From the IMG/VR virus record IMGVR_UViG_3300030419_004018, positions 1-21,708 of that record: a stretch of 21,708 nt of DNA. The stretch is one strand, 5' to 3'. This DNA is from a virus. The first letter of the stretch is position 1. Each line of letters begins with the position of its first letter. The notes beneath the pieces are model-generated. The model was not told where the DNA came from. It ran no database searches and saw nothing but the letters and a program-made list of their open reading frames with translations. Positions 3,175 to 21,708 of the stretch are shown here, piece by piece. Both the position numbers and the translations under genes were made by a program.

Positions 3175-4137
3175 ATGGCAATAATTGCGGGATGGAGTAG
3201 AGGTACATGGTCTCAAGGTACTTGGGGCGAATCCATTCCAGTTGTTGTTACAGGAGTGGCAGGGACAGGTGCGGTTGGATCTGTTTCTGTTGTTGCAGAG
3301 GCTAGTGTTCCAGAGACAGGGCTGGCGGCTACAGGTGGCGTTGGCTCTGTTGTCGTTGCGGCTGCGGCTGATGTAGGGGTTACAGGCTCTACAAGCACAG
3401 GTTCTGTAGGTTCTGTCGTTGTCACAGGTACAGCAAACATTTCCGCAGCGGGATCTGCGGGTACGGGAGCCGTAGGATCACCGACAATTAGCGGTGATGC
3501 GATTGTTCCAGAAACAGGTTTATCTTCTACAGCTTCCGTTGGTAGCGTAACAGTTGCTGCGAATGCAGACGTTGGAGCTACAGGATCTGCTGCTACTGGT
3601 GGGCTAGATTCTGTAACGGTAACAGGTACAGCCAACGTTCCAGAGACAGGTATCTCTGCCACAGGCGGCGTTGGTAGCGTTACAGTTATAGGCGTTGGTA
3701 ACATAGCGGTCACAGGATCTGAGGCTACGGGCGAAGTCGGTACGGCTACAGTTAATGCTGCTGCAAATGTTGCTGTAGAGGTTGGCGAATCTCCACCCAC
3801 AGGTTTTGCTTTTGGTGTGGTAGGCACTGTCATTGCGGGTATTTCTGTAGAGTTTTTAACAACGGGATTGGCAAGTGGAACAAATGTTGGTACTGTAACG
3901 GTACAAGCAAACGCAGATGCTATCGTAACTGGCGAAGAAGTAGCAGGAAGTATAGGAAATGTTAGGGTATATGGTCAAGTTGTTCCAGATCAAGTTCCGA
4001 ATTTTCAACCGCCTGTGCCCGGTATGCAGCCCGGCGATCCATTGTCGAGTCCCTCTTATAAAGAGGCTGAAGGAGCGCCTAGAGGCTTTGTACCCGGTGA
4101 TCGTTTACAAGAAGCTGCATGGAAAGACGTAGCATAG
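3175..4137 (+). CDS. Tandem 22-residue beta-repeat virion protein
   Basis: A 320-aa protein dominated by repeats. Residues 1-20 are Trp-rich (GWSRGTWSQGTWGE). Residues 23-198 are eight consecutive units of exactly 22 residues, with a TG near unit position 4-5, TG.VGSV.V in the middle and a small-residue end (TGTAN, AANAD). Residues 199 to about 270 hold roughly three diverged units with one insertion. The last 50 residues are Pro-rich (VPNFQPPVPGMQPGDP) with a charged end. Regular short Gly/Val/Thr repeats suggest a beta-solenoid or fibrous rod, consistent with a tail spike shaft or decoration, but I know no assigned function. The VGTVTV core recurs in the proteins at 1383-1763 and 12793-13077. 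The start has a poor ribosome site lying in an inverted repeat. Confidence 0.85.
   Translation: MAIIAGWSRGTWSQGTWGESIPVVVTGVAGTGAVGSVSVVAEASVPETGLAATGGVGSVVVAAAADVGVTGSTSTGSVGSVVVTGTANISAAGSAGTGAVGSPTISGDAIVPETGLSSTASVGSVTVAANADVGATGSAATGGLDSVTVTGTANVPETGISATGGVGSVTVIGVGNIAVTGSEATGEVGTATVNAAANVAVEVGESPPTGFAFGVVGTVIAGISVEFLTTGLASGTNVGTVTVQANADAIVTGEEVAGSIGNVRVYGQVVPDQVPNFQPPVPGMQPGDPLSSPSYKEAEGAPRGFVPGDRLQEAAWKDVA
3241..3768 (+). repeat. Eight tandem 66-base coding repeats (22 aa each)
   Basis: Eight in-frame units of 66 bases encode residues 23-198 of the 320-aa protein without any gap. Units beginning VPETG (2, 4 and 6) alternate in part with units beginning VGVTG, ISAAG, VGATG and IAVTG, hinting at a 44-residue higher-order duplication. 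DNA identity between units is moderate, so the array is not freshly amplified. Confidence 0.85.
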
Positions 4138-4146
4138 GAGAAATAT

Positions 4147-4749
4147 ATGGCTAGTACGTTTACAACAAACTTTGCGATTGAAAAACCGGGAACTGGTGAA
4201 CAATCTGGTACATGGGGTACAACAACAAACCATAACTTTGATATATTTGATCGGTTGGCTGGATACAAAAGCGTAACTGTATCAGGTGCAACGCATACAT
4301 TAACTGTTAGACCAGGCTCTCCATCTTCTGGATCGAGCAACGCATCAGACGGTATGTATCGCGTTATTGAGTTTGTAGATTCGGGTTCAGATCTTGGCAG
4401 TGATGTTACGCTAACAATAGCACCAAACACAACTCAGGCGTTTTTTATCTTTAAAAATTCATTAACTGCGGATAGAAATATAATTGTTACGCAGGGTAGC
4501 GGAACAAATGTTACCGTTCCCGGCACAGGAAAAGTTAGCATTGTGTACGGTGATGGTGGCGGATCAGGAGCAAATATGATAAGCTTGAGTGATACTTTGG
4601 CAATGTCAAATCCTGAGATTACAGGTGGTTCAGTGACCAATCTTACTGAGTTAAGCATGGTAAACGCTGCGGCACAGGTCAAAGCTCAGAATGGTTTAAA
4701 TGTAGACGCGGCGGGTACTGCTGTCGCTTTATCAATTGCGTTAGGATAG
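4147..4749 (+). CDS. Tail structural/fibre-like protein with EQSGTWGTTTN motif
   Basis: A 200-aa beta-rich protein. The N-terminus (FAIEKPGTGEQSGTWGTTTN, residues 9-28) is a signature I recognise from many marine phage tail or fibre proteins. It is followed by NFDIFDRLAGYKSVTVSG, a region like LTVRPGSPS...DGMYRVIEFVD, an ITVTQG/VTVPGTG block and a GDGGGSGANMISL turn-rich strand. The C-terminal 45 residues (MSNPEITGGSVTNLTELSM...) resemble the head of a fibre shaft. The probable role is a baseplate-like or fibre-attachment subunit of the tail (inference). AGGAGAAA precedes the ATG at good spacing, and four bases separate its stop from the next ATG. Confidence 0.85.
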   Translation: MASTFTTNFAIEKPGTGEQSGTWGTTTNHNFDIFDRLAGYKSVTVSGATHTLTVRPGSPSSGSSNASDGMYRVIEFVDSGSDLGSDVTLTIAPNTTQAFFIFKNSLTADRNIIVTQGSGTNVTVPGTGKVSIVYGDGGGSGANMISLSDTLAMSNPEITGGSVTNLTELSMVNAAAQVKAQNGLNVDAAGTAVALSIALG

Positions 4750-4753
4750 TTAG

Positions 4754-5095
4754 ATGGCAACAAATACCTTCAAACGAAAAATCTCAGCAAGCATAGGCAC
4801 CACGGCTACGGCGGTTGGTGGTTATCAAGTTCTTCTGGACGTTCAAACCACAGCAATTGGTTTGGCTCTGGCTAATGTAACAGCTTCTCAAATAACTGTA
4901 ACTGTTACTTTGAATACCCAAGCGGGTGATACAATCCATATTATTAAGGACGCACCGATACCAAGCGGTGGTGCGTTGATCCCGATTGGTGGAGATCAAA
5001 AGGTTGTTATGGAACATAACGATCAGATTAAAGTTGTGTCGGATACAGCATCGTCAGTCGATGCTATCTTGAGTATTCTAGAGATTGCTTCATAG
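4754..5095 (+). CDS. Small beta-sandwich-like virion protein, 113 aa
   Basis: A 113-aa protein with no charged clusters and strong beta-strand alternation. Landmarks are IGLALANVTASQITVTVTL (about residues 35-53), IHIIKDAPIPSGGALIPIGG (61-80) and a C-terminal strand ending SVDAILSILEIAS. I recognise it as a short structural protein that recurs in marine phages next to fibre genes; its exact position in the particle is unknown to me. AGGA before the ATG is the ribosome site. It directly precedes the first fibre gene and may cap or attach fibres (inference from position). Confidence 0.85.
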   Translation: MATNTFKRKISASIGTTATAVGGYQVLLDVQTTAIGLALANVTASQITVTVTLNTQAGDTIHIIKDAPIPSGGALIPIGGDQKVVMEHNDQIKVVSDTASSVDAILSILEIAS

Positions 5096-5105
5096 GAGTG
5101 TATAG

Positions 5106-6749
5106 ATGCCATATTTAGGTAACGAACCTGCCACAGCGTACACAAGCACCACGAAGGATACTTTTAGCGGTGACGCCTCTACTACCGACTTTACAATGTC
5201 AAAGTCCGCAAACGTTAATGCGGTTCGAGTAGTTGTAGAGAACGTTGTTCAAAACCCGACTGTCGCTTACACCTGTAGTGGCACCACGTTGTCTTTTACA
5301 TCGGCACCTCCCACAGGCACAAACAACATCTACGTTGTGCATCTAGGACCACCAGCCGCGACTGTTGCACCGCCTTCGACTATTAATAATCCGACTACAT
5401 TTACTGGTGGTGTTACCTTAAAGAACGAAACGCCAGAAGACACGGACGGAGGACGAGAGTCGATAGTTACCTTTCAAGGTACGCAATCTGGTAGTGAAAT
5501 TACCACATTGGCTCAGATTCAAGCGTCACATGACGGTACATCGGATGATGAAGCTGGCGATTTAATCATCAAAGTTAATGACGGCAACGATGGTGCATCA
5601 CCTAGTGAAGCCATGAGAATAAACTCATTAGGTAATGTGGGTATTGGTACTGCTAATATTGATGTTTCAACTCAAGCAGGTGGCTCTGGTTATAAAGCAT
5701 TACAGATTGAAAGTGATGAGGGTGGACAATTAAACTTTGACCACAATGATGCTGGAACAGGCTCTACTCTCGGACAGATTAACTTTCAAAGAGCAGGTGA
5801 AGTTCTTGCTGAAATAGAAGGTGTTACTGACGGTGCAACAGATAATGGTCGTATAGCTTTTAGAGTGCAACCTGATGGCGGTGCGTTAGGTGAAGTCATG
5901 AGAATAGACCATACTGGTAATGTAATGATTGGTCACACCTCCCAAGATTCACCTGTTGATAATGGCGGTGCTGGTGTAACACTTAGAACGCAAGGCGTAA
6001 TGCTAATCGGTGGTACTGGAACTTCTATATACGCTAACCGTGAAGATAGTGATGGCGAGGTTATGCAGTTTCGCAAAGACGGCAGTAGCTTTGGGGGGAT
6101 TGGTCTTTCTGGTGGTAATAATATGTACATTTCTGGTACACAGACTGACCATTGTGGATTTACTTTTGCAACAAATCAAATTCTACCTACAACACTGGGA
6201 ACTGCTAATGATAACATTGTTGATTTAGGTTCAAGTTCTAATCGTTATAATGACGCATATATCACTAACGGTGTTACAACAGGTTCTGATGAAAGAGAAA
6301 AACAACAGATTGCATCACTAACAGATGCAGAAATTACCGCAGCTAAAGCAATTAGTAAGTTATTTAAAACGTATAAGTGGAATAGTGCAGTAGAATCCAA
6401 AGGTGACAATGCTCGAACTCACACTGGTGTTATTGCTCAACAAATAGAAACTGCAATGTCAGACGCAGGGTTAGACGCAGGGGATTATGCGTTCTTCATT
6501 AGTACAACTTGGTGGGAAAAAGATGTAGAGGTTGCTGCTGTTGAGGCAGACGAAGAGAGCGGCATAGAAGCACAAGACGCTTACACACGTACTGATACCT
6601 ACGACACACAAGAAGAAGCACCAGAGGGCGCAACAGAGCGTACAAGGTTAGGTTTAAGATACGCAGAGTTACTAGCATTTATTGGTGCAGCAACAGAACA
6701 GAGACTAACTAGCATTGAAGCTAGATTAGACGCACTGGAGGCAGGATAA
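5106..6749 (+). CDS. Tail fibre A with C-terminal self-cleaving S74 chaperone domain
   Basis: A 547-aa fibre protein. Residues 1-85 form an N-terminal particle-attachment-type domain (MPYLGNEPATAYTST...). Residues 107-172 are the block shared with fibre B (EDTDGGRES ... SEAMRI). Residues 173-390 are a beta-rich shaft or receptor region (GNVGIGTANID, GNVMIGHTSQD). The last 154 residues are a peptidase S74 intramolecular chaperone: Ser394-Asp-Glu-Arg-Glu-Lys399 is the Ser-Lys dyad spacing known from endosialidase tailspikes, followed by HTGVIAQQIE and a C-terminal coiled coil (LTSIEARLDALEAG). In that family the domain trimerises the fibre and then cuts itself off just before the Ser, which here would leave a 393-residue fibre. 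Host receptor binding is the likely role. Codon choice becomes more A/T-ending after about 5630. Confidence 0.9.
   Translation: MPYLGNEPATAYTSTTKDTFSGDASTTDFTMSKSANVNAVRVVVENVVQNPTVAYTCSGTTLSFTSAPPTGTNNIYVVHLGPPAATVAPPSTINNPTTFTGGVTLKNETPEDTDGGRESIVTFQGTQSGSEITTLAQIQASHDGTSDDEAGDLIIKVNDGNDGASPSEAMRINSLGNVGIGTANIDVSTQAGGSGYKALQIESDEGGQLNFDHNDAGTGSTLGQINFQRAGEVLAEIEGVTDGATDNGRIAFRVQPDGGALGEVMRIDHTGNVMIGHTSQDSPVDNGGAGVTLRTQGVMLIGGTGTSIYANREDSDGEVMQFRKDGSSFGGIGLSGGNNMYISGTQTDHCGFTFATNQILPTTLGTANDNIVDLGSSSNRYNDAYITNGVTTGSDEREKQQIASLTDAEITAAKAISKLFKTYKWNSAVESKGDNARTHTGVIAQQIETAMSDAGLDAGDYAFFISTTWWEKDVEVAAVEADEESGIEAQDAYTRTDTYDTQEEAPEGATERTRLGLRYAELLAFIGAATEQRLTSIEARLDALEAG
6285..6302 (+). other. 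S74 autocleavage site codons (Ser394 to Lys399)
   Basis: These codons encode SDEREK. In characterised S74 chaperones the Ser and the Lys five residues later form the catalytic pair, and cleavage is on the N-terminal side of the Ser. The preceding context (ITNGVTTG) and the following KQQIASL fit the family. Confidence 0.8.
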
Positions 6750-7849
6750 TGAGCAAGGCACGAGAACTAGCTGAACTAGGTGCGGTTTACGATAGCGGTG
6801 CCTTGTCGAACCGTAATATTATAATCAACGGTGCTATGAATGTGGCGCAAAGGGGTACGTCTAGCACAGGCGTCGGTGGATCATCAGGATATTTTACTTG
6901 TGACAGGTGGAAAATAACAACGGATGCTACTGCTGGTAGAGTAACTATGACGCAAGAAAGTGATGGACCAGATGGATTTGCAAATAGTATTAAACTAGCT
7001 ACTACAACTGCTGACACTTCTATCGCAGCAGGAGAACTTTTTATTTTAGGTCAAAGTATTGAGGCTCAAGATTTACAAAAATTAAAAAAAGGTACAAGTG
7101 CAGCTGAATCTGTAACAGTAAGTTTTTATGTTAAAGCAAATGCCTCTGCTACATATGTGGCTGAATTGTTTGACCATGACAACACTAGAAATAATACAAG
7201 AGCATTTACGGTAGGAACAAGTTGGTCGAGAGTAGAATTAACTTTCGCTGCAGACACAACAGGTGCTTTGGGCGATGATAATGCCGCAGGTATGACGTTT
7301 CAAATATGGCTACATGCAGGGTCAACTTATTCTGGTGGAACATTTTCTGATAATACTTGGCAGAGTGTTACCGCTGCAAATAGATATGCTGGAAGTAGAA
7401 CATCAATCTTTGATAGTACAAGCAGAACACTTTTTATCACAGGCGTCCAGTTGGAAGTCGGCACAGAAGCCACGCCCTTTGAGCATCGGTCATTTGCTGA
7501 TGATCTTTTAAGTTGTCAACGCTACACATACATTATTACAGGTGACGATGATGACATGACAGGTATTATGGGTTATGGGGAGTCAGCATCAGCCGCAAGG
7601 TTTCCTTTATTGTACCCTGTTAATATGAGAGCATCTCCATCTTTTACTTTATCGGGAACTTGTAGGGCGCAAGGTGGCACAGCAGATGGTGCAAATTTTA
7701 CAAGTGGATTGGCAATTGTTAATGCAAATACTAATCATACTGGGTCTGCATTAAGAGTTACTGGCACAAGTAATCTAGCTAATGATAGAGGGTATAATCT
7801 CCAAATAAAAGCTGACGGTACAACACTAACTTTTGATGCGGAGCTATAA
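6749..7849 (+). CDS. Accessory tail-fibre / carbohydrate-binding-like protein, copy 1
   Basis: A 366-aa protein of a widespread phage fibre family. It opens with a short coiled region and NRNIIINGAMNVAQRGTSST (residues 22-41). A jelly-roll-like domain follows, with QSIEAQDLQKLKKGTS, VTVSFYVKANASATYVAEL and the hallmark ITGVQLEVGTEATPFEHR near residue 230-247, then SFADDLLSCQRY. The C-terminal 100 residues are a separate beta domain ending FDAEL. The fold resembles carbohydrate-binding modules, so glycan recognition at the host surface is plausible (inference). GGAGG inside the last codons of fibre A is its ribosome site, and the stop and start share an A. The paralogue at 9636-10736 has exactly the same length. 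Confidence 0.85.
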   Translation: MSKARELAELGAVYDSGALSNRNIIINGAMNVAQRGTSSTGVGGSSGYFTCDRWKITTDATAGRVTMTQESDGPDGFANSIKLATTTADTSIAAGELFILGQSIEAQDLQKLKKGTSAAESVTVSFYVKANASATYVAELFDHDNTRNNTRAFTVGTSWSRVELTFAADTTGALGDDNAAGMTFQIWLHAGSTYSGGTFSDNTWQSVTAANRYAGSRTSIFDSTSRTLFITGVQLEVGTEATPFEHRSFADDLLSCQRYTYIITGDDDDMTGIMGYGESASAARFPLLYPVNMRASPSFTLSGTCRAQGGTADGANFTSGLAIVNANTNHTGSALRVTGTSNLANDRGYNLQIKADGTTLTFDAEL

Positions 7850-7852
7850 AAT

Positions 7853-8023
7853 ATGAATATTGAATCAGCACAATATTACAACGATGGTTTTGGAAATATA
7901 GGGGGTATTATGGCTACAATAGACGGACAAAAAATTTCTATCCCTTTAGACCCTGCCAACCGCCACTACGCAGCTATCCTTGAATGGGTAGATGATGGAA
8001 ACACAATTGAGGAGGCTGATTAA
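7853..8023 (+). CDS. Small fibre-cassette protein, copy 1, 56 aa
   Basis: A short gene filling the interval between the accessory fibre and fibre B. It reads MNIESAQYYNDGFGNIGGIM at the start and ends in ILEWVDDGNTIEEAD. It is a paralogue of the 60-aa protein at 10739-10921: both start M(N/D)I.SA.Y and share (A)(T/V)ID....SIP....NR.Y...(I/V)LEW. The family recurs beside fibre genes in marine phages and may act in fibre assembly (inference; no function is known to me). GCGGAG within the upstream gene's DAEL codons is the probable ribosome site. Its own GAGGAGG overlaps the last codons and would serve fibre B, with which it shares a TAATG. Confidence 0.85.
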   Translation: MNIESAQYYNDGFGNIGGIMATIDGQKISIPLDPANRHYAAILEWVDDGNTIEEAD

Positions 8024-9636
8024 TGCCATATATAGGTAATCAACCGGGAACGGGTGTAAGAAACCGTTTTATCTATACCGCGACTGCCTCCCAGACCACG
8101 TTCACAGGGGCGGATAACAATAGCAAAACGTTGAGCTATGCAGATTCTGCATACGTTGACGTTTTTTTAAATGGAATCTGTCTCGTGCCGGGAACCGACT
8201 ACACCGCCAGTACAAAGACGAGCATCGTATTAACCCAAGCAGCTTCACTTAGCGATACTTTAGAAGTTATTGCGTATGACGTAGCGTCAATGGATGACTC
8301 TCTTTCAACGTCTGATGGCGGGACTATTTTAGGTAATTTAGGCGTTTCCACCTCTTCTCCTGATCTTACTTTTACAAACACTACCTCTGAGGACACAGAC
8401 GGAGGCCGAGAGTCTACGATCACCTTTAAGGGTAAACAGTCTGGCGGCGAAGAAAGTACCTTAGCTGAAATACGAGCCAGTCATGACGCAACAGCAGACG
8501 ATCAAAAAGGCGATTTAATATTTAAGACTAATGATGGATCTGATGGTACAAGTCCAACTGAAGCTATGAGGATTGAATCAGACCAACAAGTTTTAATAAC
8601 TACAAGTGCAGATGCTAAAGGTCTTACTATTAAGAACTCTGGTGACAACAGACCATACTTAAATATGGACGCTAATAGAAGTGGTGCAGGAAATAATTTA
8701 TCACAAATAAACTTTAAGTGGGATGGAACTGATGTTGCTAGAATTATAGCTGTAGCAGGAGCAGATACTACCAATAAAGACGATGCTCATATAACATTTG
8801 GTACTGCTTCAGCAGGGTCTGTAGATGAACGTATGCGTCTTACATCGAGTGGAGGTTTAGCTATTGGTTCTACCGATAACAATGGTTTTAATCTTAAAGT
8901 TGAAGGTTTAACAATGCTTGAATCTGGTAACAATGAAACCTTTGGTCAACTTTTTATTCATGGCACTGGTTCGTCAACTGGTGATGCACAAATTTCTATG
9001 CATACTGATTCAAACGGTAGAGCTATCTACGTTGATGAAAGTGATGCTAATACCCTGAGATTTTCTGGTGGTGCTGGAAAAGGCCACTCATCTGACTTTA
9101 AAATAGATAACAGTGGTAATGTAACAGTAGGTGGTTCTCTTTCTAAGGGTTCTGGTTCATTTAAAATACGCCATCCATTAGAATCTAAAAAAGATACACA
9201 CTGGCTTGTTCACTCTTTTGTTGAGGGGCCACAAGCTGATAACTTATATCGTGGTAGAGTTACTCTTGAAGACGGTGTAGCAAGTGTAAATGTTGATATA
9301 GCATCAGGAATGACTGATGGAACTTTTGTTCTCCTAAACAGAGACATTCAATGTTTTACAACAAATGAAACTGGTTGGACTCCTATTAAAGGTTCTGTGT
9401 CAGGAAATATTCTTACAATTACAGCACAGGATAATACTTGTACTGATACTATTTCATGGATGGTTATTGGTGAACGTCAAGATGACCACATGAAACAAAA
9501 CACTACAGGTTGGACAGATAGCGATGGTAAAATAATTATTGAGCCAGAGCTAACTAAAACAGAAAAAGAAGATAATACAGAAATAATTGAAAATCCTGTT
9601 CTAAAATTTGATTATAGTGAATTGGAGGCAGAATAA
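8023..9636 (+). CDS. Tail fibre B with a different C-terminal domain, no S74
   Basis: A 537-aa fibre. The N-terminus (MPYIGNQPGTGVRNR...) is a variant of the fibre A attachment domain, with an FLNGICLVPGTDY strand pair at about residues 48-60. Residues 119-184 match residues 107-172 of fibre A without gaps. The shaft (185-380) differs. The C-terminal 155 residues hold GSFKIRHPLESKKDTHWLVH, GPQADNLYRGRVTLEDG, DGTFVLLNRDIQCFTTNE and SWMVIGERQDDHM, a beta domain I recognise from other marine phage fibres and from bacterial surface proteins. No Ser-Lys S74 motif is present, so maturation must differ from that of fibre A. It probably recognises a receptor different from fibre A's, or is a second branch of one fibre assembly (inference). 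Composition turns more A/T-rich after about 8515. Confidence 0.88.
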   Translation: MPYIGNQPGTGVRNRFIYTATASQTTFTGADNNSKTLSYADSAYVDVFLNGICLVPGTDYTASTKTSIVLTQAASLSDTLEVIAYDVASMDDSLSTSDGGTILGNLGVSTSSPDLTFTNTTSEDTDGGRESTITFKGKQSGGEESTLAEIRASHDATADDQKGDLIFKTNDGSDGTSPTEAMRIESDQQVLITTSADAKGLTIKNSGDNRPYLNMDANRSGAGNNLSQINFKWDGTDVARIIAVAGADTTNKDDAHITFGTASAGSVDERMRLTSSGGLAIGSTDNNGFNLKVEGLTMLESGNNETFGQLFIHGTGSSTGDAQISMHTDSNGRAIYVDESDANTLRFSGGAGKGHSSDFKIDNSGNVTVGGSLSKGSGSFKIRHPLESKKDTHWLVHSFVEGPQADNLYRGRVTLEDGVASVNVDIASGMTDGTFVLLNRDIQCFTTNETGWTPIKGSVSGNILTITAQDNTCTDTISWMVIGERQDDHMKQNTTGWTDSDGKIIIEPELTKTEKEDNTEIIENPVLKFDYSELEAE

Positions 9637-10736
9637 TGGCAGTATCAAGAATCGACGAAGCTGGCCTCAACGTTAACCAGTATGGGAACAGAAATGTTAT
9701 AGGTAATTCTGCAATGAGAATTGCTCAACGAGGTACGAGCACAACAGGAATTACTGGTTCTGATTATCAAGCTCTTGATAGATTTAGAACATCTATAGGT
9801 AATGGTGGAACTTGGACAATGAGTCAAGCATCTGTTACTGATTTAGTAGGTTTTGCTAATTCATTAAAGATGGATGTTACTACAGCAAAAAGTTCTCCAG
9901 ATGCTAATTCAAGTTGTAGGATTCAAACAAAAATTGAGGGTCAAGATTTACAACATTTTAAAAAAGGTACTGCAAGTGCAGAACAATACACTTTAAGTTT
10001 TTATGTTAAATCAACAACAACTGGAACATACATAGTTGAATTTTTTGACGGAGATAATACTAGACATGTTGGTAAATCGTACACAATAGACGCTGCTGAT
10101 ACTTGGGAATATAAAACTATAACAATGCCAGCAGATACTACAGGAGCTTTTGATCGTGATGCTAATGGTAGTCTTATAGTAAGTTGGTATTTAATGGCAG
10201 GGTCAGATTTAACTTCTGGAACTTTAAGAGAAACTTGGGGTGGTTCTTCAAATACTGAAAGGGCAGGTGGACAAGTAAATCTTGCAGCAAGTACATCTAA
10301 TGATTGGCAAATCACAGGGGTACAACTAGAAGCAGGAGACACAGCAACCCCTTTTGAATATATCCCCTTTGCTGATGACTTAGCTAGGTGTCAGAGGTAT
10401 TACTATAGAATAAGTTGTGATGGTAGTCACGATGGTGTTTATACAATTGGTAACGCATTTACTACTGATGATGCTCTTTGTGCAGTGCCTTTTCCTGTTG
10501 CTATGAGAGCGGAACCAACTCTTGGTTTTCAAACAGGGGCAAGTGGACATAAAATTAGGACTGGATCAGGGTCTAGTCAACAAACTTCAGCATTAATTAT
10601 TAGTGCTTTTGACAATACTAATTTTACTAATGTTTCGCTTACTGGCACTACAACAACTGCTAATTTAACAAGCGGACATGCCGCACAATTTCGTGTAAGC
10701 CCAGATGACTTTATTGATTTCGATGCGGAGTTATAA
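9636..10736 (+). CDS. Accessory tail-fibre / carbohydrate-binding-like protein, copy 2
   Basis: A 366-aa paralogue of the protein at 6749-7849. Shared landmarks are NRNVIGNSAMRIAQRGTSTT (residues 18-37), IEGQDLQHFKKGT, YTLSFYVKSTTTGTYIVEFF, ITGVQLEAGDTATPFEY and PFADDLARCQRYYYRIS, and both end in FDAEL. The family is usual in phage tail fibres, and its central domain looks like a carbohydrate-binding jelly roll. Sequence between the landmarks has diverged strongly from copy 1, as expected for surface-exposed binding loops under diversifying selection (inference). GGAGG in the last codons of fibre B acts as the ribosome site, with a TAATG junction. Confidence 0.85.
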   Translation: MAVSRIDEAGLNVNQYGNRNVIGNSAMRIAQRGTSTTGITGSDYQALDRFRTSIGNGGTWTMSQASVTDLVGFANSLKMDVTTAKSSPDANSSCRIQTKIEGQDLQHFKKGTASAEQYTLSFYVKSTTTGTYIVEFFDGDNTRHVGKSYTIDAADTWEYKTITMPADTTGAFDRDANGSLIVSWYLMAGSDLTSGTLRETWGGSSNTERAGGQVNLAASTSNDWQITGVQLEAGDTATPFEYIPFADDLARCQRYYYRISCDGSHDGVYTIGNAFTTDDALCAVPFPVAMRAEPTLGFQTGASGHKIRTGSGSSQQTSALIISAFDNTNFTNVSLTGTTTTANLTSGHAAQFRVSPDDFIDFDAEL

Positions 10737-10738
10737 AA

Positions 10739-10921
10739 ATGGATATTAAATCAGCTAAATACTTTAAAATATCGTATGAGGATGCTCCCGACAAAACAGT
10801 AATCCAAGCAGTTATTGATGATAGAAATATGTCTATACCAATATCAGAGGATAACCGTTACTACCGAGCAGTCCTCGAATGGGCGGAAGAAGACGGCAAC
10901 GAGATTCAAGCAGCGGAGTAA
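10739..10921 (+). CDS. Small fibre-cassette protein, copy 2, 60 aa
   Basis: A 60-aa acidic protein beginning MDIKSAKYFKISYEDAPDK and ending AVLEWAEEDGNEIQAAE. It is homologous to the 56-aa product of 7853-8023, differing by a longer N-terminal loop (ISYEDAPDKTV). No catalytic motif or membrane segment is seen. The constant position after the accessory fibre in both cassette copies argues for a fibre assembly or capping role (inference). The ribosome site (GCGGAG) lies in the last codons of the upstream gene. GCGGAG at its own 3' end precedes the nozzle gene's ATG. Confidence 0.85.
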   Translation: MDIKSAKYFKISYEDAPDKTVIQAVIDDRNMSIPISEDNRYYRAVLEWAEEDGNEIQAAE

Positions 10922-10927
10922 TGTTAC

Positions 10928-12796
10928 ATGCCACTAAGCAAACTCCAGTTCAAGCCGGGAATCAACCGAGAAGGCACCAACTATTCTAACGAAGGTGGTT
11001 GGTTTGACGGAGATAAGATCCGTTTTAAGTCTGGCTATGTGGAGCGCATTGGTGGCTGGCAAAAGGTAGCTACAACCACATTTGAGGGTAGCTGTCGTAA
11101 CATGCTGGATTTTGTAACACTGGCATCTGAAAACTTATTGTTTATGGGTACGCATGAAAAAGCCTACCTCGAAGATGGTGGCACTTACTACGACATAACT
11201 CCTATAAGAACTACGATTACATGCGGAGCAAACCCCATAACAACAGGAACCGCAGGATCTGGTATTATTACGGTAACAGCTAATTCTCACGGATCAAAAG
11301 TAGGTAATTACGTCACAATAGCGGGGGCCACGGCTGTAGATGGACTTACAACAGATCAACTTAATCAAAATTTAGAAATACTAACAGTTCCAGATAGCAA
11401 CACTTTTACTGTTGACACAGGTGGAGCGGCTTCTTCTGGGTCAACGGCTGGAGGTGGTAGTTCTGTTACCGCAGCTATGGAAATAGATGTTGGTCTTAAC
11501 ACCACAGTTCTTGGTAATGGTTGGGGTGCAGGTACTTGGGGACGTATGACTTGGAGTTCTGGTGCTGGATCGTTAGCGGGTCAAAACCTCAGACTGTGGA
11601 TGTCTGATTCTTGGGGCGAGGATCTGGTTGCTAATTTAGTGGATGGCAGTCTTTACTATTGGGACGCAACAACTGGCAAATCCGCCCGAATGGTTGAATT
11701 AAGCACTGTATCAGGTGCTAGTGATGTTCCAACTACCGTTCGAAAAGTTATGGTATCGGACACAGATCGTCATGTTTTGTGTTTTGGTGCCAATCCGGTG
11801 GGTAGTGCTACATTCGATCCATTGCTTATTCGTTGGTCTAGCCAAGAAAGTGTAACAGATTGGACACCCACTGCTACCAACACCGCTGGTGACATACGAT
11901 TGTCTCAAGGTTCTGAGATAGTAACAGCTATTCGAACATCGCGTCAGATCCTTGTGTTTACAGAAAACAGTTTACATAGTGTGCAGTTTGTCGGAGCACC
12001 GTTTACTTTTGGTGCAGCAATAATCGGTACAAACGTCCGTATTGCAGGTCCTAACACAGCGATTGCTGTAAACGATGTTGTCTTTTGGATGGGTCAGGAA
12101 AACTTCTATCTTTACGATGGTCGTATAAACCCTATACCATGTAGCGTTCGACAGTATGTGTTTGATGATATTAATCGTAATCAATCGTTCAAGTTTTTTG
12201 CAGGTAGCCTATCAAGCAACTCTGAAGTCTGGTGGTATTATTGTTCTGAGAACAGTAGTGAAATAGATCGTTATGTAATTTACAACTATCTTGAAAAAAC
12301 TTGGTACTACGGAACCTTAGCCAGAACAGCTTGGAACGATAGAGCGTCTGGATCTCGTTTATTTCCACAAGCTCCAGGAACAGACGGCGTATTGTACAAC
12401 CACGAAAACGGTTTGGACGATGGCAGCGTTAACCCTCCAGCCGCAATCAACGCCTTTGTGCAGTCAGCAGACTTTGACATAGGCGACGGTCAACAGTTTA
12501 TGCTAATCAACAGGATTATACCTGATCTTAACTTTTCAGATTCGGATGCGACGTCACCGCAGGTTAAGTTTACCATGGGTGCGAGAAACTATAGCGGTAG
12601 CGCAGCGGGTCAAGGATCTGTAAACGGGGATGTTATACGATCCTCTGTGGTCTCTGGAACAGATAACTACACGGATCAGGTCTACATGAGATTAAGAGGA
12701 CGACAGGTTAACTTGAAAGTTGAGAGCGATACGACCGGAGTCAAATGGAGACTGGGTGCACCCAGGTTAGATGCAAGACCGGATGGTCGTCGATGA
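10928..12796 (+). CDS. P22 gp10-like nozzle / packaged-DNA stabilisation protein
   Basis: A 622-aa protein. It starts MPLSKLQFKPGINREGTNYS and continues with GWFDGDKIRFKSGYVERIGG, both typical of gp10-like DNA-stabilisation proteins, which form the hexameric tail nozzle below gp4 in P22. Residues about 105-180 are an inserted beta domain (ITVTANSHGSKVGNYVTIAG, PDSNTFTVD). The centre has Trp-rich blades (WGAGTWGRMTWSSGAG; VFWMGQENFYLYDG; SEVWWYYCSEN) that look like beta-propeller repeats. The end, LKVESDTTGVKWRLGAPRLD, is a signature I know from marine homologues. It is longer than P22 gp10 (472 aa), mainly through the inserted domain. It presumably binds the gp4-like adaptor and carries the fibres. 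An ATGA overlap couples it to the next gene. Confidence 0.85.
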   Translation: MPLSKLQFKPGINREGTNYSNEGGWFDGDKIRFKSGYVERIGGWQKVATTTFEGSCRNMLDFVTLASENLLFMGTHEKAYLEDGGTYYDITPIRTTITCGANPITTGTAGSGIITVTANSHGSKVGNYVTIAGATAVDGLTTDQLNQNLEILTVPDSNTFTVDTGGAASSGSTAGGGSSVTAAMEIDVGLNTTVLGNGWGAGTWGRMTWSSGAGSLAGQNLRLWMSDSWGEDLVANLVDGSLYYWDATTGKSARMVELSTVSGASDVPTTVRKVMVSDTDRHVLCFGANPVGSATFDPLLIRWSSQESVTDWTPTATNTAGDIRLSQGSEIVTAIRTSRQILVFTENSLHSVQFVGAPFTFGAAIIGTNVRIAGPNTAIAVNDVVFWMGQENFYLYDGRINPIPCSVRQYVFDDINRNQSFKFFAGSLSSNSEVWWYYCSENSSEIDRYVIYNYLEKTWYYGTLARTAWNDRASGSRLFPQAPGTDGVLYNHENGLDDGSVNPPAAINAFVQSADFDIGDGQQFMLINRIIPDLNFSDSDATSPQVKFTMGARNYSGSAAGQGSVNGDVIRSSVVSGTDNYTDQVYMRLRGRQVNLKVESDTTGVKWRLGAPRLDARPDGRR

Positions 12797-16549: not shown

Positions 16550-19500
16550 ATGGCAGAGTTTGATCCCACCAAACCATTTACAATAGTGGAGCCAGACCCT
16601 ATAGAATTTGATCCCACCAAACCATTTACAATAGTGGGAGAAGAAGAGGACGAATCCGATCAAACAGTCGTTGGTTCCATAGGTCGAGGTGCTGGTGCAG
16701 GTTTAGTTAACATTGCACAAGGACTCTCGGAACTTGGTGCTGCGGGTCTCGAAGCCACAGGTGCTATTGACGAAGGTAGTCAGGAAGCAACAACCGAGGC
16801 GTTTGAATCTCTCAAAGATGCCACTGGATTACGACCAGATCGTGCGGCTGGTAAGGTCGCAGAAACTATCGCTACATATGCTACACCTGGATTAGGCGTA
16901 TTTAGCTGGGTATCTAAGGCAGACAAAGCACGTAGAGCTTTACAGGCAGGAACGGCTGCACCAAAAACTAAAACAATAATAGGTAGATCTGCTGTTAAGT
17001 TTGGCGAGAAAGCTCCTGCTGCTTTGACAGGAACACGGGCAGGTCGTGCCGCTCTAACAACCGTTGGCACAGGCGTAGCTGACATTTTTGTTTCACCAAG
17101 CTCAATGTCAACTCTTGCAGATAGCTGGGATGCCATGCCTGATTTTCTTAGAACAGAAGATGAAGAAGGTCTAACAGGTAAGGAACTAACAGGGGTGCGT
17201 CTTAGAAATAAATTTCGTCTTGGTCTTGAAGGAGCCGGATTTAACTTAGGAGCAGAAGTTGTTTTACCCGTGGTGGGTGCAACAGTTAAAGGCATAGGTC
17301 AGGTGCCAGGTGTGCCAGCCTTGGCACGAGGTCTATCTAATACGTTCGATTATATGGGAGACAAAATTCTTCAAGCTCCAGTCATTGGACCACGGGTCAA
17401 GAAGTACTTAACTCCTGATGGATTGGCTCCAAACGAAATCATGACAGCCCTCAGAACGGCTGAAGGTATGACTGAAGGCCAAGAGAAGATGGCTAGTGAA
17501 ACCATCCGAGAGTACGATAAAGCTGTTCGTAACTTAATAAAGTTTCAAGGTGTCAGAGGTTTGTTTCGTTCAGGGCAGGAACGTATTCAACGGACATATA
17601 GTGACACATTTGATTACCTAACCGGAGATATGGCTGCGGATGTTTTCCGTTCCACATACGGCACCAAAGTAACAAAAGCTGCAGACAAAATGCGAGAACA
17701 GATTACCGATCTAAGCAATATGTTTCGTGAGTCGATAGAAGAGTCCAACCTACCCAGAGAAGAAATTGATCGTCTTCAAGGTATCTTTGACCAAAACCAA
17801 GCCACATATATACGAAGATTATACGAAATAAATCTCCGACCAGAAAAGTTCAGAGGTGTACCTGTACGAGAAATGCCAAACTATGATGCAGCTTTAGCTC
17901 AAACAGAACAAGCTTTCCGTAACAGAAACGCACGGATACAATCCGCGATAGCCGCAGGTCGAAACGTTGCAGATAGAGACATGATCGTAGATGATCCACG
18001 AGCCGCAGCGGAAATGTTTATTGATGAACAGTTTGATCGAGCACGTTTGGCTATGGGAGAACTTGCTCTTGATGCTCCACAGCACATCAAATACATAACT
18101 CAAGGCGGTAAAGAAGTTAGAACAGAGACCCGTGGTAATCTCTTCAACCTAGCTGACGGAATGTTGAAGGATCGTTCGCGGATTTTAGACGAAGCTCCTC
18201 TACTACAAGAAATGATGGGTGTAATACGTGATCCAAAAGAAGCGTTTCTTCGCACGGTAAACGATACATCTAACACCATCGCAGCACAAAGATTGTATGG
18301 TGAGGTTGCAAGATCTCTTGGTAAAACAACATTTCAGGATGGATTACCTGCACTGAGACAAGGTCAACGTCCCATCATCGATGGTAACAACTTAACGGAT
18401 CAAATGGTCGCACAGTTAGAGGGCTTTGGGTATGTAAGAGCCGGAGAATTGAATCCAGAGAGAGCCTTTGGTGGTAAGTTTGGGTCTCTATCTGGTGATT
18501 TTATCCCTGTAGAAGTGTATAATTCTTTGACCACACCTATGAGATCAAGCTCCTCGGTCCAAGAAGCTCTGGCTGTATCGCTACAACTCAAGGGTTTATC
18601 ACAGATGACCAAGACTGTGCTGAACCCCTTATCACAAGTCAGAAACTTTCTATCCAATACGTTTGTCGTAGGTGCAAATGGTTTGTTGGGCAGGAACTTA
18701 GGCTTGTTTGAGAGTGCAGATGTCTTGGTTTCCAACGCCCTCGAAAGCCCAGAACAATTCAAGTTGTTACGATCAATGGCGGACGAAGGAGCGATTGGTC
18801 AAAACATACAGATCAACGAGATGCGTCGATTGTTGCAAGAACAAACTGAGTTGGGTGTATCTGCACGACTTAACAAAGCAGGTAACGCCTTTCGACAATC
18901 TAAGCTTGGTGCACCTGTTCGGTTTATGGAAAAGACCTATGGATTGGGTGACGACTACTGGAAGGTGGTCGGTGCTCTGGGAGAGAAAGCAAGATATGGT
19001 GCTGCTCTTCGCAAAGGTGGGGTAGATATAGACAACGTATCTCCCGCAGTTCAAGAAGCTTTAGTTGCTTCTGGTCTTGCACAAAGATCCAGATCGATTG
19101 CAGGTACAGAGTTTGGTGATCTGTTTGCTATCGACTTAGTTAAACAAACCATGCCTACATACTCCATGGTTCCTGAAGCGATTAAAGCGTTACGTCGTAT
19201 ACCTGTCGTCGGTAACTTTATGGCTTTTCCTGCTGAGATTATTCGTACAACAGGCAACATCGTTAATCGTGCTGTCAAAGAGATGGGATTTAAACCCACT
19301 CAACAGATGATAGATGAACTAGGTATAGAGTCCGCAAACAGAATAGCTCGTCAGGTTAGAGGCATAGGTGCCCAACGTTTGACAGGGTATATCTCCATGG
19401 CACAGGTTGCTCCGTTGGCAATGCGTGACGCGGCACATACAATTCTTGAAGTGACACCAGAAGAAGAAGCTCTTCTAGAAGAGAACAGTGCTTACTGGAC

Positions 19501-20680
19501 TAAGGGCAATACTCTTATGTATTTGGAAAAACTCAAGGACGGACAGGCAGATTACGCCGACTTGTCTTACATGCTACCGTATGAGTTTATGCTTGCCCCT
19601 GCTCGTGCTGCCCTGCAAGTGTATGGAGAGAAGGGTGAAGTCGGAGCTAATGAAGCAGAACAGATCTTTGCTGGAACGTGGGAAGGTTTCAAGAAGTTTG
19701 CAGAACCATTTGCTTCAGAAGGTCTCGCAGCTGAAAGAGTTATCGACGTAACAATACGAAACGGCAAAACACAGACAGGTGCCGAGATCTATGAACCAGG
19801 TGAGATGTGGGGAGACAAACTATCTAAGTCCTTGGTACACGTAACTGGGGCGTTTATGCCTGGAATTATTGATCAGTTCAGAACAATCAAAGGTGGTGAG
19901 TTTGTTCCAGGTCGTGCCACTCGCGCTATTACTGGTATGCCCTCAAGAGACGGAGATCCCTACACCATAGCTGAAGAAGCTGGCACCATGCTCATTGGTG
20001 TTCGACCCATGAAACTTAAAGTAGATCGTAGTCTTGGGTATGCTGGAGGTGAATATTCTGCAAACAGATCCAGTGCTGTTCAGATCTTTACTAAAGTAGC
20101 CGACGACAATGATGCAGATGTCGATGACATATTGGGTGCCTATGTACAAGCTAACGAAGCACGTCGCAGACACCAAGCAGAACTCAGAGATAAAATACTA
20201 AAGGCACAGGCAGCAGGTATGAGTAAGGCTGAAGTATTCAAAGCTTTCAAAAACACAGGTGTAAGTCGCAAAGAACTTCGAGATATTCTTAATAACAGAT
20301 ACATACCAATCAAAGTAAGTCGAAACTTAATTAGAGAAGTTGCCAGGGAAGTAAATATTAACAGAGAAAATCGTATACTTAGTAGAGTTCCTGTTAGTGA
20401 GATCAATGCGGTGCGTAGGTCATTAATTGGAACTCCAATTATTGGAGAAAGAGAAGAGGTGCAAGAGACCACAACTCCTGTTTTTGATCCTACCCAGCCA
20501 TTCACAATTGTGGGACAAGAAACGCCTTCACCAAGCCCGACAGTTTCTGTTCCTGCTCCATCACCACAACCAACCACACTACAACAGGTGCGAGATAAAA
20601 CCAGAACTATACTGGGTACAGCGAGCAATCCAATATCTGCATTAAGAGACTTGGAAATCTTTCAGAGTACGAGAGACTAA
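16550..20680 (+). CDS. Giant presumed ejection protein with FDPTKPFTIV tags at both ends, 1376 aa
   Basis: The largest gene, 1376 aa. It starts with two copies of EFDPTKPFTIV (residues 3-13 and 19-29), and a third version, VFDPTQPFTIVG, lies near the C-terminus (1311-1322), just before a Pro/Ser/Thr-rich linker. Residues 40-330 are Gly/Ala-rich with weakly hydrophobic stretches. A long helical, Arg/Glu-rich middle follows (330-680). TKTVLNPLSQVRNFLSNTFV (from 687) and VVGNFMAFPAEIIRTTGNIV (from about 886) are blocks I recognise from large marine phage structural proteins. Like T7 gp16 or DarB-type proteins it is probably packaged and ejected with DNA (inference from size and last position). 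No transglycosylase, protease or polymerase signature was found. Its stop overlaps the stop of the opposite-strand gene. Confidence 0.85.
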   Translation: MAEFDPTKPFTIVEPDPIEFDPTKPFTIVGEEEDESDQTVVGSIGRGAGAGLVNIAQGLSELGAAGLEATGAIDEGSQEATTEAFESLKDATGLRPDRAAGKVAETIATYATPGLGVFSWVSKADKARRALQAGTAAPKTKTIIGRSAVKFGEKAPAALTGTRAGRAALTTVGTGVADIFVSPSSMSTLADSWDAMPDFLRTEDEEGLTGKELTGVRLRNKFRLGLEGAGFNLGAEVVLPVVGATVKGIGQVPGVPALARGLSNTFDYMGDKILQAPVIGPRVKKYLTPDGLAPNEIMTALRTAEGMTEGQEKMASETIREYDKAVRNLIKFQGVRGLFRSGQERIQRTYSDTFDYLTGDMAADVFRSTYGTKVTKAADKMREQITDLSNMFRESIEESNLPREEIDRLQGIFDQNQATYIRRLYEINLRPEKFRGVPVREMPNYDAALAQTEQAFRNRNARIQSAIAAGRNVADRDMIVDDPRAAAEMFIDEQFDRARLAMGELALDAPQHIKYITQGGKEVRTETRGNLFNLADGMLKDRSRILDEAPLLQEMMGVIRDPKEAFLRTVNDTSNTIAAQRLYGEVARSLGKTTFQDGLPALRQGQRPIIDGNNLTDQMVAQLEGFGYVRAGELNPERAFGGKFGSLSGDFIPVEVYNSLTTPMRSSSSVQEALAVSLQLKGLSQMTKTVLNPLSQVRNFLSNTFVVGANGLLGRNLGLFESADVLVSNALESPEQFKLLRSMADEGAIGQNIQINEMRRLLQEQTELGVSARLNKAGNAFRQSKLGAPVRFMEKTYGLGDDYWKVVGALGEKARYGAALRKGGVDIDNVSPAVQEALVASGLAQRSRSIAGTEFGDLFAIDLVKQTMPTYSMVPEAIKALRRIPVVGNFMAFPAEIIRTTGNIVNRAVKEMGFKPTQQMIDELGIESANRIARQVRGIGAQRLTGYISMAQVAPLAMRDAAHTILEVTPEEEALLEENSAYWTKGNTLMYLEKLKDGQADYADLSYMLPYEFMLAPARAALQVYGEKGEVGANEAEQIFAGTWEGFKKFAEPFASEGLAAERVIDVTIRNGKTQTGAEIYEPGEMWGDKLSKSLVHVTGAFMPGIIDQFRTIKGGEFVPGRATRAITGMPSRDGDPYTIAEEAGTMLIGVRPMKLKVDRSLGYAGGEYSANRSSAVQIFTKVADDNDADVDDILGAYVQANEARRRHQAELRDKILKAQAAGMSKAEVFKAFKNTGVSRKELRDILNNRYIPIKVSRNLIREVAREVNINRENRILSRVPVSEINAVRRSLIGTPIIGEREEVQETTTPVFDPTQPFTIVGQETPSPSPTVSVPAPSPQPTTLQQVRDKTRTILGTASNPISALRDLEIFQSTRD
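16559..16637 (+). repeat. Exact 31-base direct repeat encoding FDPTKPFTIV
   Basis: Bases 16559-16589 and 16607-16637 are identical over 31 positions, with starts 48 bases apart in the same frame. The third protein-level copy (about 20483-20515) differs at DNA level. The two N-terminal copies look like a recent duplication of an older tag. Confidence 0.9.
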
Positions 20681-20880
20681 TCCTCCACCTCAATCCTGAC
20701 GCCCTTGCCCCCGAACATTCTAACCAGTTCGTCAGCCATTCCCTCTGTTTCTTGGACCAGGCCCTCGTCCATTGACAGCACCGATAAATCAACTGCCCAT
20801 CCGATAAAATCCATCAAGGCTTCTATCTGCATAGGATGCATCTGTCTTAATCCCAGGGTTTTCATATCAGGATCTATCAT
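20677..20880 (-). CDS. Small acidic protein downstream of polA, 67 aa
   Basis: A 67-aa protein, MIDPDMKTLGLRQMHPMQIE at the start and MFGGKGVRIEVED at the end, with a helical centre containing FIGWAVDLSVLSMDEGL. I do not recognise a family. The start is set at 20880, where ATGA overlaps the polA stop and GGGGAG lies 7 bases upstream. A TTG five codons earlier would place that ribosome site inside the gene and is less likely. It is the last gene of the minus-strand replication transcript, and its position suggests translational coupling to polA. Its stop (TAG, 20677-20679) overlaps the stop of the plus-strand giant gene. A replication accessory role is possible but unsupported by motifs. Confidence 0.7.
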   Translation of the reverse strand: MIDPDMKTLGLRQMHPMQIEALMDFIGWAVDLSVLSMDEGLVQETEGMADELVRMFGGKGVRIEVED

Positions 20881-21708
20881 TCGATTTCTCCCCAATTGTC
20901 CTTGAGTTCATCGTCAACTTTAGAGGGGACTTTCAAGACGTCCGACAGCCCATTCTCCATTATGTCCTTGATGCATCGCGCTTGGTCGTCACCCTCTACT
21001 GAGAAGCATAACTCATCATGAACCGTAAGCATAGGTAAAAGTCCCTCTGAATAACAATCAGCCATAGCTTTTTTTGTCTGGTCGGCGGCTGATCCTTGAA
21101 TCAATTTGTTCAACGCCTTGTAAGTAAACGCTCTTTTCAATGGCTGACCATATTCTTTCATGGCTTCTTCGTATGGTAATGGCTTCTTGTATCCAAACGT
21201 TCTCGGCTCCCACAGGTGAAATCGACAGCGACGCCCCAGTATGGTACGGATCTGCCCTGTCTTCTCTGCTTGTTTACTTGCCAGATCTGCAAGACCCTTA
21301 ACGAACGGCACCTTCTCACGGTGTGTTGCCAGTAGTTCTCCTGCTTCGTCAGGTGAGATGTCTAGTTGCCCTGCCAGTTTACCTTTGCCCATACCGTACA
21401 TGATACCTAAGTTCACGACCTTTGCTTCCTTACGTTTGATTCCTGCTATGTCCGCTACCATCTGGTGCAGATCCACGTCACCGCTGTGATATTCCTCTAC
21501 GATTGTATCAACGATAGGATGCTTGAACTCTCCCTTCAGGCTTGCCGCAAAGTGCACCAGTAACCTCGGCTCTTGGCTCGAATAGTCAAACGATCCCCAC
21601 TTGGTTCCTTCTTCTGGTATAAACAGACCACGGATCATCTTCTTGATCTCAGGATCACGCGAAGGAATTTGCTGTAGGTTTGGGTTGGACGACGAGAATC
21701 GCCCAGTT
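20877..21708 (-). CDS. polA: Family A DNA polymerase, C-terminal part (gene runs off the window)
   Basis: About 276 residues of the polymerase domain of a Pol I-type replicative enzyme are visible; the 5' part lies beyond 21708. Motifs in order: TGRFSSSNPNLQQIP (21663-21707), motif A SFDYSSQEPRLLVHFA with the catalytic Asp codon at 21585-21587, the O-helix RKEAKVVNLGIMYGMG, the LIQGSAADQTKKAM helix, and motif C VHDEL with His-Asp-Glu at 21012-21020. The protein ends DDELKDNWGEIE. The O-helix residue equivalent to E. coli Phe762 is Leu (codon 21408-21410). T7-type enzymes have Tyr at this site, which governs dideoxynucleotide discrimination. The Leu variant is associated with marine viruses. 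The enzyme copies the phage genome. It is encoded opposite to the virion genes and followed by a small coupled gene. Confidence 0.95.
   Translation of the reverse strand, partial: TGRFSSSNPNLQQIPSRDPEIKKMIRGLFIPEEGTKWGSFDYSSQEPRLLVHFAASLKGEFKHPIVDTIVEEYHSGDVDLHQMVADIAGIKRKEAKVVNLGIMYGMGKGKLAGQLDISPDEAGELLATHREKVPFVKGLADLASKQAEKTGQIRTILGRRCRFHLWEPRTFGYKKPLPYEEAMKEYGQPLKRAFTYKALNKLIQGSAADQTKKAMADCYSEGLLPMLTVHDELCFSVEGDDQARCIKDIMENGLSDVLKVPSKVDDELKDNWGEIE
20888..20893 (-). promoter_or_regulatory. Ribosome-binding site of the small gene after polA
   Basis: GGGGAG on the minus strand lies 7 bases before the ATG at 20880. It overlaps the last codons of polA and decides the ATG start over the upstream TTG. 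Confidence 0.65.

Follow-up and report, generated by a model that had tools for sequence, protein, structure and literature searches.

The window analysed here is an entire IMG/VR virus record of 21,708 bases (IMGVR_UViG_3300030419_004018), and the subject is an array of tail-fibre genes on its plus strand, in which a fibre gene (F), a gene for an adhesin-like protein (A) and a gene for a small protein (S) occur twice in succession at positions 5106-10921. The best explanation of this array, to which we assign a probability of roughly 0.7, is that of two constant slots bearing interchangeable adhesin modules in a marine podovirus of the HMO-2011 type. Slot 1 would be formed by the upstream gene g113 together with the N-terminal domain (N-domain) of the first fibre, F1, and slot 2 by the N-domain of the second fibre, F2. 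Each N-domain would be followed by an exchangeable shaft and tip and, optionally, by an A-S pair. This reading is based on the homology of the gene pairs, the gene order, the fidelity of the N-domains to their slots, the exchange of the distal parts, the variation in the number of A-S copies, the fold of A and a 15-nt word found at the joints.

According to the proposed mechanism, the N-domains would attach each of the two fibres to a site of its own on the virion, the tips and A would bind glycans of the host surface, and S would aid the folding or assembly of A. Two slots would provide two specificities on one virion, and selection could replace one arm at a time. A narrower version of this proposal, put forward tentatively and at less than an even chance, is that the two sockets are standardised: docking domains that are related and not interchangeable would accept tip and lectin-helper modules swapped through the 15-nt joint, so that one arm could be re-tooled while the other works.

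Gene order and slot-specific N-domains

Related loci were fetched with the neck gene that ends the array (10928..12796, a neck or 'stabilization' protein, phrog_3287) as the anchor, which gave 80 IMG/VR loci 63-94% identical to it. Gene order was compared in 25 contigs, the window included, in which the anchor gene is at least 60% identical and the region from g147 to the neck gene is covered. Two pairs among them (L030/L031 and L069/L070) are near-copies, and the tallies below count contigs and not independent events.

Wherever the genes are present, they follow the order g200, g113, F1-type gene, [A-S], F2-type gene, [A-S], neck gene. This order is invariable (22 of the 25 contigs), even though the neck genes of the contigs that keep it are only 63-94% identical to that of the window. 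In the window itself, g113 (4754..5095) encodes a small structural protein directly 5' of the F1-type gene; F1 (5106-6749) has 547 residues with its N-domain at residues 1-92 (5106..5381), and F2 (8023-9636) has 537 residues with its N-domain at residues 1-106 (8023..8340). F1-type genes stand directly behind g113 in all 20 cases that are not at a contig edge. Of the F2-type genes, 14 follow S, 13 follow an F1-type gene at some distance, 2 follow g113 at some distance and 13 sit at a contig edge; none lies directly behind g113. Genes of the g113 type are also found in HMO-2011, HTVC100P, Lederberg and Melnitz.

A tree of the N-domains separates the two types with full support; the labels were derived from similarity, and the tree is therefore illustrative and not a proof. 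The F1-type and F2-type profiles are homologous (hhalign probability 98.5, E 3e-15). Judged from these profiles, the two types are old, remote paralogues, so that any duplication, if it was one, would be an old event that concerned the docking domain and preceded this clade. In seven close relatives with neck genes 87-92% identical (an eighth, L036, is more distant and is excluded from the ranges), the backbone genes are 82-96% and the N-domains 76-97% identical to those of the window. The F1 N-domain is conserved to this degree even in close relatives that have no similarity across the rest of F1.

The N-domains were also compared with the T7 fibre anchor (PF03906). The window F1 has no Pfam match to it and F2 scores 15.6 bits, below the cut-off of 25.2, while two slot-1 relatives exceed the cut-off (L036, 36.3 bits, 5.5e-9; L165, 26.8 bits, 4.8e-6). 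A remote kinship of the window fibres with an anchor of the T7 gp17 type is thus likely on sequence grounds. However, it is doubtful that the F2 N-domain is simply a T7 anchor. In the fibre of HTVC011P the F2-type domain is internal at residues 446-536 (E 9e-24) and the true T7 anchor sits elsewhere, at residues 2-148; internal F2-type domains are also present in CRP-1 (625-707) and CRP-9 (571-653). Since this domain is internal in HTVC011P and the window fibres fall below the anchor cut-off, docking on the virion is a role that we infer. The antibody chains that the F1-type profile matched in the PDB were set aside as noise.

Homology of the paired genes and exchange of their distal parts

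The earlier note had described the array as a tandem duplication of a whole three-gene cassette. The three gene pairs in the same order were confirmed, with exactly the positions and lengths of the open reading frames that it reported (547 and 537, 366 and 366, and 56 and 60 residues), and the TAATG stop/start overlap marks the S1-to-F2 junction as well as the two junctions between fibre and A. Local alignment scores were compared with 200 shuffles, and were 405 for F1/F2 (shuffles 59 +/- 11, maximum 103), 536 for A1/A2 (48 +/- 8, maximum 79) and 110 for S1/S2 (22 +/- 5, maximum 48). The corresponding BLASTP matches are 36% identical with E 5e-39 for the fibres, confined to residues 1-307 and 1-318; 40% with E 6e-62 for A (residues 21-366 and 18-366); and 40% with E 4e-12 for S over the full length. 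The pairs are therefore homologous, and what they share goes beyond generic short motifs.

For the fibres this homology holds for the N-terminal 60% or so, and not for the C-terminal parts, whose tips are unrelated. The identity of F1 and F2 is 27% in the N-domain, 46% over 200 residues of the shaft and 24%, equal to the background, in the C-terminal part. The shafts occupy 5382..6035 in F1 and 8341..8982 in F2, and both appear to be exchangeable; the F2 shaft is 80% identical to a slot-2 fibre (L104) and 77% to a slot-1 fibre (L026). The F1 tip (6036..6749) contains a Peptidase_S74 domain at residues 394-456 (45.6 bits against a cut-off of 22), for which relatives were found in the PDB, and which is predicted to be a self-cleaving chaperone with Ser394 encoded at 6285. 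The F2 tip (8983..9636) has no Peptidase_S74 match, though its slot-2 family contains this domain in 17 of 37 members, and its relatives among the fetched loci are found only in L055 and L079.

The best relatives of the F1 tip are slot-2 fibres of other genomes (L014, 72%; L102, 66%; L030, 63%), which indicates that tips are exchanged across slots. In the seven close relatives, the tips are only 22-42% identical to those of the window, A 36-57% and S 46-70%. From these comparisons it is concluded that the tips, A and S are exchanged between genomes, and the tips and A also between slots.

The gene for A1 (6749..7849, phrog_4492) and that for A2 (9636..10736) each encode 366 residues, and the two proteins are 40-41% identical. 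The predicted model of A (pLDDT 89) consists of an N-terminal helix, a domain of the CBM4 fold at residues 21-240 (a jelly roll, 6809-7468 in A1) and a C-terminal β domain, which was barely tested by the fold search. The fold matches that of a CBM4-2 module (2y64, Z 14.1, rmsd 2.6 over 158 residues). Phage proteins with the same fold are CBA120 TSP4 (Z 11.7), Kp7 gp52 (Z 10.7), K2-2 TSP (Z 10.8) and the fibres of Pa193 and E217 (Z 10.8 and 10.4, 22% identity). In these proteins the domain lies within the spike or fibre polypeptide, whereas A is a separate gene with the small partner S. At the level of sequence, the window A proteins have no match to Pfam CBM_4_9, which is matched weakly by 9 of 81 relatives of A (best E 5.7e-5), and the PDB profile match of A is marginal (9t9r_H, E 0.007). 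The lectin-like CBM4 fold of A is a confident prediction; A would then be a putative adhesin that may bind glycans. The tree of A mixes the slots: eight slot changes are needed (8-10 over the bootstraps), of which at least six are forced by well-supported branches, in a tree whose bootstrap is not fully settled and which has several long branches.

The A-S pair and the 15-nt joint word

The S1 gene (7853..8023) encodes 56 residues and the S2 gene (10739..10921) encodes 60. The predicted model is a β3-α arrangement with a pLDDT of 96.8. None of the 66 members of the family has a relevant match in Pfam or NCBIfam, Phage_tail_APC included, and no relevant sequence match was found in the PDB. Structural matches to chemokine-like β3-α folds (best Z 5.8, Foldseek E 0.5) are weak and were treated as chance.

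S stands directly behind A in 90 of 96 cases, while 89 of 160 A genes have S directly behind them and distant A genes are mostly without it; the sampling was driven by A and the neck gene, so that S without A is under-sampled in these counts. The S gene of Melnitz is annotated as 'tail assembly chaperone', and in HMO-2011 a C1q gene (gene 31) is followed by a Phage_tail_APC chaperone (gene 30). The position behind A, this annotation and this analogy suggest that S is probably a helper or assembly chaperone of A. The C-terminal DAEL of A was considered as a tag recognised by S; this was not supported, because xAEL is an equally regular ending of those A proteins that have no S behind them. The distances in slot 2 are correlated (A-S, r 0.51; A-F2 N-domain, 0.51; S-F2 N-domain, 0.60); as a test of the co-inheritance of A and S this correlation is significant, but it is not specific.

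The A-S pair is present in both slots of seven of the 25 contigs, the window included, in slot 2 only of seven, in slot 1 only of three, and in no slot of four; one further contig (L049) has a broken A in slot 2, and S was not found there. In the remaining three (L050, L052 and L083) g113, F, A and S are all missing, and the g200 homologue is longer, with 327-464 residues. The g200 gene of the window (4147..4749) is the upstream neighbour of the array; its homologues begin longer fibre-like proteins, and in CRP-902 the homologue is the start of a 'tail fiber domain' protein of 1015 residues. The proposal that the three genes act as a unit is partly borne out: A and S travel together, but A-S occurs in 0, 1 or 2 copies and is not tied to the kind of fibre tip. 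In L045 (5268-9501), which belongs to the contigs with the pair in slot 1 only, two consecutive A-S pairs stand directly behind g113, with no recognisable F1, and are followed in turn by F2 and the neck gene.

Three copies of the 15-nt word GGAGGCWGRWTAATG are present in the window (expected 0.00), one at each of the gene starts of A1, F2 and A2 and none elsewhere. These copies are GGAGGCAGGATAATG at the F1-to-A1 junction (6737..6751), GGAGGCTGATTAATG at the S1-to-F2 junction (8011..8025) and GGAGGCAGAATAATG at the F2-to-A2 junction (9624..9638). The 1.94 Mb of DNA that were fetched, a total that includes the window, contain 29 copies, 14 at starts of A and 14 at starts of F2; at the remaining one the frame is truncated where the contig ends and resembles A. 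At overlapping TAATG or TGATG starts, 33 of 65 A and F2 genes carry GGAGGC, against 3 of 57 other genes (p 2e-8, an optimistic value because the relatives are not independent). The protein ends encoded at the three window sites differ (DALEAG, SELEAE and TIEEAD), so that the word seems to be conserved at the DNA level. It looks like a Shine-Dalgarno site with a coupled stop and start, and it might also serve as a recombination seam for the exchange of modules.

Alternative readings and related systems

Several observations weigh against the two-slot explanation. The window F1 and F2 remain below the Pfam cut-off for the T7 anchor, and the F2-type domain may be a joint within a fibre, as its internal position in HTVC011P, CRP-1 and CRP-9 suggests. 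Four spanning contigs (L030/L031, L045 and L074) have an F2-type gene without a recognisable F1-type gene, and the three spanning contigs without g113 have neither. S does not belong to a recognised family. Finally, A is partly faithful to its slot, as the eight slot changes compare with 12.5 in shuffles, with none of 500 shuffles as low.

The first alternative is a serial or branched fibre, in which the N-domain of F2 would dock on F1 or on a complex of g113 and F1, as in KP32-like or G7C-like phages. This arrangement is somewhat unlikely; it is compatible with exchangeable modules and overlaps with the two-slot explanation. Systems of anchor and branch are already known among two-receptor podoviruses (PMC6872550). 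The fibre of HTVC011P, which carries an F2-type domain behind the T7 anchor, as well as the internal domains of CRP-1 and CRP-9, fits this arrangement. HTVC011P and the T7-like pelagiphage fibres resemble the window in this domain and in a T7 anchor weakly similar to the F1-type profile (E 8e-5), but they have one fibre gene, with the F2-type domain internal and no A or S beside it within the fetched stretch. On the other hand, L045 has F2 without a recognisable F1 on which it would dock.

The array may be compared with the phages of the KP32 and KP34 groups and with K1-5/SP6, which likewise carry two receptor-binding proteins (RBPs) on a short tail, with conserved N-terminal docking parts, swapped distal parts and sometimes an autocleaving chaperone tip (PMC6872550). 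In the two-RBP phages of Klebsiella, RBP1 consists of a T7 anchor with a T4gp10-like branch and RBP2 is attached by a short N-terminal peptide. In the window, both fibres have related N-domains of about 100 residues, and an A-S pair is possible in each slot. No T4gp10-like branching domain was found in F1 by Pfam at E values up to 1, a search that could miss fragments as short as those of Klebsiella phages. A short attachment peptide of the RBP2 kind was not found in F2 either, which is joined by about 106 N-terminal residues that are conserved in the clade and homologous to the N-domain of F1. Both observations count against the serial or branched reading. The suggestion of the earlier note that the two sets provide two receptor-binding arms is considered plausible, with pairs that are homologous, in the same order and translationally coupled, and the branched fibre that it also named is kept as the alternative.

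According to the second alternative, which is less probable still, there is no logic of two slots: A-S would be a mobile adhesin module that enters at coupled starts, and the second fibre would have been acquired independently. A-S does occur in other backbones. In Melnitz (Kyanoviridae) it is preceded by g113-type and F1-type genes, and in P-TIM68, also of another tail type, A forms the end of a fibre of 671 residues; the consecutive A-S pairs of L045 point in the same direction. In the portion of a report on marine-phage metaviromic islands that was available (PMC3909814), genes for carbohydrate-binding and fibre proteins are among the commonest identifiable in the variable islands, as would be expected of such modules; that portion describes the variability, but not a two-slot rule, an A-S pairing or a joint word. 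However, N-domains that are specific to their slots, an order that does not vary while the neck genes range from 63 to 94% identity, and the partial fidelity of A to its slot speak against free mobility.

The weakest alternative, a recent tandem duplication of the whole cassette within this genome, agrees with the common order, the near-equal lengths and the identical junctions, but it is very improbable, and both A and the N-domains refute it. With A genes of other genomes, whichever their slot, A1 shares 57% identity, and with A2 only 41%; the distance between A of slot 1 and slot 2 is 0.639 within a genome and 0.637 between genomes, and for every slot-1 A that is paired within its genome a closer relative exists in a different genome, so that the A copies are not sisters. 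Together with N-domains that are only 27% identical and split by slot throughout the clade, with unrelated tips and with an F1 tip nearest to slot-2 fibres elsewhere, this refutes the duplication claimed earlier. An apparent duplication of a fibre cassette in such genomes should be read slot by slot, and not as a pair of mutual copies.

The two-slot explanation also agrees with the layout of the isolate HMO-2011 (a Puniceispirillum phage), in which the neck gene is preceded, in the same order, by a g113-type gene (gene 42), an F1-type gene (41), an F2-type gene (33), A (28) and S (27). The window contains this HMO-2011-type fibre region in full (g113, F1-type, F2-type, A-S and a neck-type gene, in this order). 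The N-domains of HMO-2011 differ in being stand-alone proteins of about 150 residues followed by strings of small proteins, and there is one A-S pair; its record annotates these genes merely as tail fibre, collar or hypothetical. That most podoviruses carry one fibre set, as the earlier note stated, may be true more widely, but in this group, HMO-2011 included, a pair of such N-terminal domains is the rule. In the available part of the RCA phage paper (PMC6918029), the fibre genes of HMO-2011-type phages differ between hosts. A search of the open-licence literature found no description of a two-slot rule with related, slot-specific N-domains, a portable A-S pair and a joint word, which is weak evidence of novelty. 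The layout, with its separable N-domains, tips and lectin-like proteins, provides a concrete list of parts and names possible seams for swapping.

Several minor features of the relatives and of the window were observed. Stand-alone N-domain proteins of about 150 residues followed by strings of small proteins of about 115-150 residues are found in HMO-2011 (L003, 4135-8950), in L068 (4143-8254) and in L014 (3457-4558). Many of the small proteins end in GDLA or GLA, as if a fibre had been split into separate units, and Phage_tail_APC chaperones (HMO-2011 genes 38 and 30) come after some of them. In Melnitz, a T4-like myophage (L181, 1524-9187), two genes for g113, genes for proteins in which the F1-type domain is repeated two or three times in tandem, A, S and a gene for another protein of F1/F2 type stand one after the other. 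In L023 (9501-11903) and L027 (2407-4809) an insertion similar to residues 89-185 of the neck protein itself extends this protein to about 800 residues. Elsewhere in the window, a protein of 320 residues (3175-4137) consists mostly of a short repeat rich in valine, glycine and threonine (VGSVTV-like), and a protein of 1376 residues (16550-20680) has the motif FDPTKPFTIV twice near the N-terminus and FDPTQPFTIV near the C-terminus. At the end of the window, a convergent gene (20877-21638, minus strand) may, judged by its sequence, encode the C-terminal portion of a family A DNA polymerase.

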